From an uncultured bacterium (GTDB taxonomy: Bacteria > Bipolaricaulota > Bipolaricaulia > UBA7950 > UBA9294), in NCBI GenBank assembly GCA_903857865.1, contig CAIOGO010000008.1:1-64000 (forward strand): 64,000 bases of DNA, given 5' to 3'. Of the stretch, positions 58,614-64,000 are shown in pieces; within the stretch, counting starts at the first letter, position 1; every line of letters begins with the position of its first letter. The notes beneath the pieces are model-generated. The model saw only the letters and a list, made by a program, of their open reading frames with translations. It was not told the origin of the DNA and did not search any database. Both the position numbers and the translations under genes were made by a program.

Positions 58614-58686
58614 GGGGCCTTAGCTCAGCTGGGAGAGCGCTTGCATGGCATGCAAGAGGCCAGGGGTTCGAGTCCCCTAGGCTCCA
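58614..58686 (+). tRNA. tRNA-Ala (anticodon GGC)
   Basis: A 73-base cloverleaf: acceptor GGGGCCT/AGGCTCC (one G-U), D arm GCTCAGCTGGGAGAGC, anticodon stem CTTGC/GCAAG, loop ATGGCAT (anticodon GGC), T arm CAGGGGTTCGAGTCCCCT region, discriminator A, no encoded CCA. The next gene has transfer-like features, so this may be an integration-prone locus. Confidence 0.96.
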
Positions 58687-58925
58687 CAACGCTATTCTGG
58701 ACGCCGTTCTTGAGCCCTGTTCATGGGGCCTGGAGTCACTTTCCGACGAGCCGCAATGGAGTCAGATGTGGCTGCAGGCTCGGCCGTGGAACTCCATCAG
58801 CTGCTCTGCACCTTCTCCGCCAGCTGTATCAAGGCTAGACTAACAGTGAGATGGTTCACTTCCGGACGTGAGGGCACATCCGAGACACTTGGTGCATTAG
58901 GTGACTGAGAAGGCCATTGCGACAA

Positions 58926-61900: not shown

Positions 61901-64000
61901 CCAGTTCCGCGCCAAAGCGAAAGCGAGACTGCTCAAGAGCCCACAGAAGCAGCGCGCTGTGGAAGGGCAGGAGCCGCGCGCGCTGAGCTACGAGGAACGC
62001 CAACAGGCCGAGCATTACCTCGACCACCGCTTGGGACCGCTCCTGGCGATGGCGCGGGCACTGTCGGCCATCCTTGCAGCGTCTTCTGGCGTAGTCGACA
62101 GAGCCTTCTTGGATCTGCTAGGGGTGTGGAAGGATGCTCGAAAGAGCCACGATTCATATCGAAGTGAGAAAGCCAGTCGCTTCTTCGAGATGCTTGGCCT
62201 CGATGCGGCGCTCTTCGCGTTGTGGGCGCGTGGCGAGATCAGACCGGCATCTGTCGAATGCCTCCTCTCGACGATGCAGGACCAGGACGTTGGAGTCCAG
62301 TATCTCATCCGGCTCGTTTCGATTCTCGCAAGAAGACCTCACTTGCATGGTCTTGCTGGAGAGCTCGCGCTCAAGGCGCGCCAACATGTCGACACCGAGC
62401 AGGACGTGGATTCCCGCGCATCGCTCTTCGCCAGTCTGGGTCGGGCCATGCTTCCCGCCAGCATTGATGAGGCAGCCACCTACTTCCGCATGGGCCTTGA
62501 GCAGATGGATGCTATCGGTGCAGGGGACTATCGCTTCGTGCACGAGGTTCTCTCGTTCGCATCTGCGATCAAGGGCGGCGAGCTTGAGGATCGTGACGTT
62601 CTCACCCTGGAAAGCATCTGTGAGCTCAACATGGGTGAGGAGGCGGAGAAGTTCACCTGGGGAGTGTACGGGCAGGCCATGTCCAAGTGCTCCGGTCTCA
62701 GAGGCCTGGCGACTCTGAGCAGGTGGGACGATCGCTCTCGGATCGCACTTCGCAGTACGCTGCTGCCCTATCTCACTGCACTGGTCGAAGATGGAAAGCT
62801 TGCACCCGAGGATGCGCTCTCGCTCAATCATCTCGCTGCTCCCGCTGAGTACTGGGATAGCGGAACACGTGAGTTCGCGCGGGCCATCCGGGGCAAGGCC
62901 GGACCTGATCCGGAGGTTGTCTCTGAGCTCATCCAGCAATACGAGAAGAACAACCCAACAGCTCCGTGGGACGAGACCCTCCAGGCTCTTGCAGCCTTGG
63001 CGGAGGAAGCTTTCGGAGCATCTTCTGACACCGTCGGCCACCTCACCGCCGCTAGCGAGCGCTATGGCAGCACTCGTCATACGCTGAACGAATACGGAAA
63101 CTACAGCGGCGAGTCCGCATACAGAGAGCAGATGAGGGAGCGCGCGGACAATGAGCGGCAACAGGATCGCGCCAACGCAGAGAAGATTGGAGACGACGCC
63201 GATCCGACCGACAAGGCCTCGCTCTCTCGCGCAATCAGTGCTCTCAACGGACTGCAGTATGCCTACGACTTCAGGGCCGACTTCTTCTCCTCGATTCGCA
63301 CCAGAGTCCCATTTGCCGAACACGCCAGGTACATCCACAACCTCTGCGATCTGGAGCACCTGTCGCTCCACTGGAAGCTGGCGGAGCTAGCAGAGTGCAA
63401 GCAGGGGTGGGGAAGATCCTCTGCTGCTCTCGGTCCGGCCCTACGGAGTGAAGCCATTCCCCTGATCGGGCTCCACGCTGATGACCTTCTGGGCGAAACT
63501 CTCGCCGGTTCGCAGATTGCGGAGATCTCCAACCTGACTGGGACACCAAGTTATGAGCTTGTCCTCGAGCTCATCCGAGTCGCTGCAAGGCGAAGGAGAT
63601 CCGTCGCTGGTGCGGTCTGGCTTGCACTCGGCTCGTTTGTCTGTCCCCGTGCGAACGACGGCCAAGCTCGAGTCGCTCTGAGGCGCTTGCTCGGGAGTGA
63701 TGCTGCGAAGCTTGCCGAGCGCGGCGCCAGCGAACGTTGCTCGGGTGGGCCTTACCCCACAGGCGACGTGCCGACGGTCGCGGCGGGACTTGTATGGAGA
63801 GCACTTGGGTCACCCTGCGCAGAGACGAGGTGGCACGCTGCCCACAGTGTCCGATGCTTCGCAAGGTTCGGACGATGGGAGGTTGTGGATTCGCTCGTCC
63901 GCCATCTCAACTGTAAAGATGCTGGGCCATTTCAGGCACCCGAACTCGCGTTCTACTATCTGCACGCCAGGCTTTGGCTCCTCATCTCGCTCGCTCGGAC
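58926..64000 (+). CDS. Avs-like STAND NTPase with N-terminal PD-(D/E)XK (Cap4/DUF4297-like) nuclease, 3' end outside window
   Basis: One open frame of at least 1691 codons from ATG 58926 to the window edge, with no in-frame stop. N-terminal nuclease: AGHEYHEAWTVSLAL, Glu48 (AVEG), Asp67 (IADLTLYYG) and Gln88-x-Lys90 (VVQFKYS), the E-D-QxK spacing of PD-(D/E)XK enzymes. STAND core: Walker A GCGGIGKT (300-307), FFDCFGGGAYRAIDEARHLP, Walker B VILFIDAVDN (398-407), VIVSCRTE (Arg443) and the GGNP loop (491-494) before a winged-helix region. From about residue 600 the chain is a long alpha-helical array of TPR/HEAT-like type, the expected target sensor. Weak SD (AGAAGG, 14 bases upstream). Avs proteins sense phage proteins and then cut DNA; this role here is inferred. 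Confidence 0.85.
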   Translation, partial: MTGGDARVDSVRAFRAGHEYHEAWTVSLALQLLQLLRPDDDLVAIAVEGLSPVDQARASARAMEIADLTLYYGDGPSFEEASRVRVVQFKYSVADSDTDFRASHAKKTIEKFAVTYREGLEKYGASAVEEKLGFQLMTNRPIYAPLLRAVEAIAQGLPRTGEIAEQARQFKAHAQMHGAALAAFAAKFELSGRSGSLQGKKTEVSTLLADWSAASGQDLVVRARLGDLRELVRDKAGEKGAPQNCITRTDILAVLGVHDSDDMLPCKSALSDVGRVVERQQLTDAVTLISSLTIPLVIHGCGGIGKTVFMSSLAAKLAERDEVLFFDCFGGGAYRAIDEARHLPQSGLIHIANTLSFRGLCEPMLPGSSDARSLMRTFKRRLIQTIATISRTEPGREVILFIDAVDNAAIVAQERGDDCFPVQLLESLNDKPIPGLKVIVSCRTENKPSTYARYQEFELQPFTRLETKAFLRARLRTVSETEINVAQSRSGGNPRVLAHLAAGERGLLDQSEIEKKVELDELIQQRIDNAVDTAIKRGCTQGDINRFLAGLAVLPPPIPLDECASALGTDESAVKSFVSDLFPWLERFDQGIMFKDEPTETLIRQEYASSQELLRRVADNLFARQDESVYAARALPELLYRLDDGKRLFNLAFDGRIPAAITSAVGRRSIRYARLRAATLHAAEKRNADGLVKLLVELSTVAVSDQRGATYILEHPDLVVAARDADAMRRLFETRTGWPGARHARLTIANAVTGEFEEASRNASAAREWINHYRSQPDHARQRNDHGPERPDIAAIPLLLISESRAKNAANFLRGWQDWYAYEVCECVFEYSRLAQTIGTQSPRRLSRFVGELEGIGPLAAALSFSEIGRPRRKDLVEKLAGLCRKRTQLRISDSFAHNARYTLQDGLRKAAAMALALGLDAQALAIATRAPHQRPRVSSYRDVFYHSDVFPFLFHTALVAAVKEQPLHEKDVLPAELVPVCSAIRKSQAGSQFRAKAKARLLKSPQKQRAVEGQEPRALSYEERQQAEHYLDHRLGPLLAMARALSAILAASSGVVDRAFLDLLGVWKDARKSHDSYRSEKASRFFEMLGLDAALFALWARGEIRPASVECLLSTMQDQDVGVQYLIRLVSILARRPHLHGLAGELALKARQHVDTEQDVDSRASLFASLGRAMLPASIDEAATYFRMGLEQMDAIGAGDYRFVHEVLSFASAIKGGELEDRDVLTLESICELNMGEEAEKFTWGVYGQAMSKCSGLRGLATLSRWDDRSRIALRSTLLPYLTALVEDGKLAPEDALSLNHLAAPAEYWDSGTREFARAIRGKAGPDPEVVSELIQQYEKNNPTAPWDETLQALAALAEEAFGASSDTVGHLTAASERYGSTRHTLNEYGNYSGESAYREQMRERADNERQQDRANAEKIGDDADPTDKASLSRAISALNGLQYAYDFRADFFSSIRTRVPFAEHARYIHNLCDLEHLSLHWKLAELAECKQGWGRSSAALGPALRSEAIPLIGLHADDLLGETLAGSQIAEISNLTGTPSYELVLELIRVAARRRRSVAGAVWLALGSFVCPRANDGQARVALRRLLGSDAAKLAERGASERCSGGPYPTGDVPTVAAGLVWRALGSPCAETRWHAAHSVRCFARFGRWEVVDSLVRHLNCKDAGPFQAPELAFYYLHARLWLLISLAR

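Follow-up and report, generated by a model that had tools for sequence, protein, structure and literature searches.

In Avs3, the ligand is the large terminase subunit (TerL) and the nuclease is activated upon oligomerization. Avs5 (AVAST type 5) is a STAND sensor for phage proteins with a SIR2 effector. Members of Avs1–Avs4 respond to the large terminase, the portal or Ksap1, which is also a phage protein, and they cleave both phage and host DNA (PMC12931631).

The window, that is, the whole stretch of DNA analyzed here (64,000 nt), covers positions 1–64000 of contig C8 (87231 bases) from a draft genome of 2.24 Mb that is 91% complete. Near its end lies an avs3-like gene on the + strand (58926–64000 within the window). 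The initial annotation had counted at least 1691 codons without a stop, a figure that corresponds to the frame from the ATG at 58926 to the window end, and the adjoining contig sequence completes the gene with a stop codon at 65391–65393, giving a protein of 2155 aa. An alternative in-frame start, TTG, is at 58917. Reading of the sequence revealed a possible ribosome-binding site, GAGAAGG (58907–58913, +), 12 nt ahead of ATG 58926, and its spacing appears to suit this start better than TTG 58917. ARAGORN detected a tRNA-Ala (GGC) gene at 58614–58687 (+); the ATG is 238 bases past its 3' end, in agreement with the earlier estimate of about 240. We consider it likely that the product is a single-protein Avs3-type immune sensor, triggered by TerL and acting through its nuclease, whose gene was acquired horizontally in a tRNA-Ala array.

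The N-terminal PD-(D/E)XK nuclease domain (residues ~1–190; 58926–59495, +), whose alignment with the Avs3 of Salmonella enterica (SeAvs3; 8DGC) starts from residue 7, carries E48 (59067–59069), D67 (59124–59126) and Q88-x-K90 (59187–59195). The STAND/NACHT NTPase region (residues ~266–540; 59721–60545, +), supported by the Pfam NACHT match (4.1e-07, above the cut-off) and by conservation, includes Walker A (residues 300–307; 59823–59846), Walker B (residues 398–406; 60117–60143), R443 and the GGNP loop (residues 491–494). The C-terminal helical-repeat sensor, defined by a profile match and an AlphaFold2 (AF2) model, occupies residues 1020–2155 (61983–64000, + strand, continuing beyond the window). 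E48, D67, Q88, K90, G303, G305, K306, D403, D406 and R443 were invariant in 10 diverse homologues and also across 31 rows of the protein's own clade. The motif positions of the initial annotation were therefore correct and their key residues are invariant in relatives; its GGNP loop is present and followed by a constant R495, but N493 varies in two of the 31 clade rows. Counted on the pairwise 8DGC alignment, the nuclease residues E48, D67, Q88 and K90 correspond to E41, D62, Q82 and K84 of SeAvs3. The protein has three of the features that characterize Avs3 in the broad sense, namely an intact PD-(D/E)XK (Cap4/DUF4297-like) nuclease, a Walker A/B STAND ATPase and a SeAvs3-homologous sensor.

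SeAvs3 was the only PDB match by sequence (1.7e-128, nuclease and STAND). The NCBIfam model NF041816 (Avs3a) matched with 791 bits in two stretches (1–979 and 1048–2059 of 2083 positions), and PADLOC Avs3a (2.4e-201) was the only strong defence-profile match. Because the HMM and phmmer E-values range from 1e-128 to 1e-237, this homology is not due to chance. In the sensor, a profile of residues 1020–2155 built from 31 relatives matched SeAvs3 1056–2053 in a single stretch (E 4.2e-98), with an identity of ~20%. Structure prediction, which the initial annotation had proposed for comparison with Avs1–Avs4, gave an AF2 model of residues 1020–2155 with pLDDT 86 and pTM 0.80. Its best Foldseek match was SeAvs3 bound to the PhiV-1 terminase (8DGC; 4.8e-33), and structure alignment (VIA) with 8DGC gave Z 26.8 and an rmsd of 7.0 over 1007 residues, a value that reflects agreement of the global fold, not of the terminase interface; the next unrelated row had Z 11.0. 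Rows under SeAvs3 (Z ≤11) were discarded as generic helical repeats. The proposed layout of an Avs-type nuclease, STAND and repeat sensor is thus supported by full-length homology to Avs3, in sequence and in the predicted sensor fold. The earlier view that no characterized member could be tied to the protein with certainty no longer applies, since the full-length match to SeAvs3 permits a closer placement.

The NF041816 equivalog cut-off is 2800 bits, and because 791 bits is below it, we file the protein as a sister group of Avs3a, not as an equivalog. A genome scan, in which the best 80 of 327 relatives were taken further, and a plasmid search, which yielded 19 records, provided the material for comparison. 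A tree of 81 rows put the window protein in a 76-row clade, apart from five canonical plasmid proteins (support 100). Since this tree was a quick one with long branches, gene content is the firmer argument. An avs3b-type gene lies directly downstream in all five canonical loci. An HMM of five Avs3b proteins, which recovers these five loci, found no Avs3b in the best 80 GTDB loci of 327, in four same-clade plasmid loci or on contig C8; some loci end shortly past the gene, and the absence holds for those that reach further. No common downstream partner gene was found in the window protein's clade either. The separate clade, the lack of Avs3b and the lack of another partner together indicate a single-gene sister group of Avs3a. 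The locus on contig C8 is not a canonical two-gene AVAST type 3 system, which has avs3b downstream.

Compared with SeAvs3 and NF041816 Avs3a, the window protein has the same domain order, E/D/QxK residues and STAND motifs and a similar length (2155 versus 2092 aa), and its sensor is homologous to the SeAvs3 sensor along the whole length and is predicted to share its overall fold; it differs in its identity to canonical Avs3 members (20–23%), in its score far under the equivalog cut-off, in its separate clade and in the lack of avs3b. The window protein probably works like Avs3. Unlike Avs5, which has a SIR2 effector, it has PD-(D/E)XK at the N-terminus, which aligns with the SeAvs3 nuclease, and no SIR2 match was found in the protein with Pfam or PADLOC. 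The single-gene Avs3-like GTDB proteins, in which no Avs3b was found, share its clade and layout and differ in phylum and genomic site. The window protein indicates that Avs3-type sensing exists in a single-gene form that is widespread among many phyla.

Among 100 genomes of the phylum, the avs3-like gene was present only in the window genome, and for this reason we regard it as acquired. The nearest kin among the best 80 of 327 relatives belong to Nitrospinota (57% identity), Aminicenantes, Pseudomonadota and Desulfobulbaceae; individual identities were 57% for Nitrospinae bin107 (L068), 54% for Marinimicrobium (L060), 54% for Aminicenantes (L087) and 41% for a Cupriavidus plasmid (L007). The GC content of the gene was 0.600 versus 0.655 for the ORFs upstream on the contig. 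GC3 was 0.676 versus 0.77 ± 0.07 (0.773) for long upstream ORFs, with 0.918 for leuS, which bears out the reported preference for A/T-ending codons as a moderate shift. The remaining genes past tRNA-Ala are similar in composition (GC 0.59–0.66). The absence from the 99 other genomes of the phylum, the nearest relatives in other phyla and the position in an array of acquired genes anchored at tRNA-Ala support horizontal acquisition, already suspected initially; the gene is the tRNA-proximal unit (58688–65635) of this array. The genomic context may be younger than the gene itself. The avs3-like DNA had no match in phage records, and scanning viral contigs at the protein level found nothing.

Genomes of the family keep the order leuS-(gmhB)-tRNA-Ala. 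Behind tRNA-Ala, the array extends over >28 kb (contig C8 58614–87231) and runs off the contig end. The avs3-like gene comes first in this series of defence-like genes, which seem to have been inserted successively. It is followed by a SIR2_2 gene (65953–67995, −) with weak ThsA- and Dsr1-like PADLOC matches, a guanylate-cyclase–TPR gene (68394–70487, −), an FMN reductase gene and then a HEAT protein gene, an Mrr_cat nuclease gene (80626–81768, −) and a gene for a second NACHT STAND protein (83972–87067; 1031 aa), in which the defence-profile matches were weak and no effector domain was identified. No integrase was found by Pfam among the array genes of contig C8. The cargo of relatives' arrays is mixed, with CHAT-TPR, an AraC/Cass2-type regulator, GNAT, hydrolases and a methyltransferase. 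In another genus, the first unit past tRNA-Ala (L046, 2483–6184) encodes a 1233-aa TPR-CHAT protein with a defence-like protease architecture. At the far end of contig C8, positions 87064–87195 are 97% identical over 132 bases to C22:1–132 in the opposite orientation; both are contig ends, and the match is either a repeat or an assembly link.

Small units behind tRNA-Ala are closed by a repeat of ~65 nt, which is found on the tRNA strand of contig C8 at 65573–65635, 68050–68113, 75992–76053 and 79938–79998. Its 3' end (positions 47–65 of the repeat model) matches the tRNA 3' end, GTCCCC[T/C]AGGCTCCA (58671–58689, +). The last 16–18 nt are nearly equal to the tRNA-Ala 3' end, and the conserved part is far longer, ~65 nt, across 11 genera. 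A sequence model built from 25 copies was positive in 21 of the 33 family genomes and 11 of 13 genera, with up to 15 copies; more than 10 of the positive genomes had contributed no copy to the model. At a stricter threshold, 19 family genomes were positive, as was 1 of 67 other genomes of the phylum. No copy of the motif was found in viral contigs. The window genome also has copies that are not near tRNA-Ala, at C13:7891–7954 and 18826–18888 (L158) and at C22:3141–3201 (L159), and those on C13 adjoin a series of large secreted, glycosidase-like genes. There is also a second repeat type of 55 nt, with copies at contig C8 68113–68168 and 70502–70556 (78% identical) that flank the cyclase-TPR gene; it ends in GCAGG[C/T]TCCACAG, and the first copy has a small CAGAAC-GAAG-GTTCTG hairpin.

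As in tandem att sites derived from a tRNA 3' end, all 26 repeats on the six contigs read that hold both tRNA-Ala and the repeat are on the tRNA strand, and the units are stacked downstream. Homology between two genomes from a single genus stops ~22 bases past tRNA-Ala, and older units are common to both; two shared stretches end 0–8 bases from a repeat end and are located 3–4 kb from tRNA-Ala in one genome and 12–14.5 kb in the other. This break and the displaced shared units fit a polar gain beside the tRNA, and the tRNA-Ala 3' end is probably the insertion site of the cassette array. A simple attR was rejected: a near-perfect second tRNA-Ala 3' end was sought and not found. The search brought up instead the 65-nt repeat and three degenerate tRNA-Ala copies, the latter at about 73497–73570, 80395–80466 and 83650–83721 of contig C8; these copies include the anticodon arm and are not recognized as tRNA genes.

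One reading of this arrangement, which we put forward tentatively as having somewhat less than an even chance of being right, is an integron-like gene capture outside integrons. The tRNA-Ala 3' end would be the fixed insertion site, the 65-nt double-stranded repeat would be the recombination site, and a trans-acting enzyme, perhaps a chromosomal Xer-like recombinase, would move cassettes that hold one gene or a few, defence genes among several of them, within one bacterial family; the avs3-like gene would be the latest cassette. Integron arrays likewise consist of small units, each closed by a site that recurs, and show signs of polar gain at a fixed anchor and mixed accessory cargo. Unlike integrons, the array is anchored at a tRNA 3' end, its genes run both ways, and no integron integrase was seen among the annotated array genes. 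RNAalifold gave no consensus pairs for 25 copies of the repeat, and because it has no conserved fold of the attC single-strand type, identity with an integron attC was ruled out. If true, bacteria would collect and shuffle immune genes at a tRNA gene by a new route, which can be compared with integrons and uses other sites and another enzyme. The literature searched, comprising sources outside subscription journals, contained no description of such a tRNA cassette array.

An alternative, which we judge slightly less than evenly probable, is ordinary accretion: genomic islands that carried integrases would have stacked up at a tRNA gene, and the integrases would since have been lost while the att sites stayed. 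Tandem stacking directed by a tRNA is well known, as reported for Dehalococcoides islands and SGI1, and tandem islands and cis-mobilizable elements share with this array the direct repeats from a tRNA 3' end and the stacking at one tRNA. The decayed tRNA-Ala copies in the array favor accretion, and no recombinase has been linked to the 65-nt repeat. Against it, the conservation of ~65 nt across 11 genera far exceeds the 16–18 nt that are identical with the tRNA, and the units, as far as annotated in relatives, are very small, often with one or a few genes and without an integrase; none was found inside the units on contig C8 (Pfam). Moreover, no more than one or two clear full-length tyrosine recombinases are present in six of the eight array genomes, and resolvase-type enzymes are missing from seven.

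The enzyme behind the array could be a housekeeping Xer-like recombinase in trans, one brought by a passing element or an integrase that has since disappeared. Three array genomes (G004, G023 and G006) have one PF00589 tyrosine recombinase each, which we call Xer-like because it is present in all of them. The window genome has three PF00589 proteins, none inside the array; its Xer-like enzyme is encoded at contig C8 18103–18654. A serine recombinase is unlikely as the common enzyme, being found in only one of the eight array genomes. A short tyrosine recombinase gene, with no tRNA close by, is located at C17:23864–24337 (L142), and its product is a possible candidate for the enzyme acting on the 65-nt repeat.

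By analogy with SeAvs3, we infer ligand recognition, oligomerization, DNA cleavage and defence for the window protein. The C-terminal repeat domain would bind a phage packaging protein that is conserved, most probably TerL at its ATPase region; ligand binding would lead the STAND ATPase to assemble an oligomer, which would bring the N-terminal PD-(D/E)XK nucleases together, so that DNA is cut and the infection stopped. Since 8DGC is an Avs3 with phage terminase bound, the trigger is most likely the large terminase subunit, and the action most likely an abortive defence driven by the nuclease. Between the window protein and L068, identity was 50–57% in the sensor versus 60% in the effector; the sensor thus seems nearly as well kept as the effector between phyla, as expected if the ligand is conserved. 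With a homologue this distant, direct tests become possible of what Avs3b does and of how broadly terminases are recognized.

The ligand of the sister clade may instead have shifted to a different phage protein, for example the portal or a further packaging protein, with the Avs3-like architecture and action kept. Long, well supported branches divide the clade from canonical Avs3a, the sensor identity is low, and the Avs families differ in ligand, Ksap1 being a further one (PMC12931631). We consider such a shift unlikely in view of the continuous SeAvs3 sensor homology over ~1000 residues, the equal overall fold and the sensor conservation between phyla. Loss of function, with the gene as a decayed passenger, would match the decayed pieces in the array and the broken or truncated state of several copies in other genomes, but with 2155 codons open, free of stops and frameshifts, and every catalytic position kept, it is very improbable. 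Vertical descent of a housekeeping protein built on a helical scaffold, for which a GC content only ~5 points under that of the neighbors was the one argument found, is scarcely credible for a gene that is missing from the 99 other genomes of the phylum, has its nearest kin in other phyla, retains an intact nuclease motif and lies next to defence-like genes.
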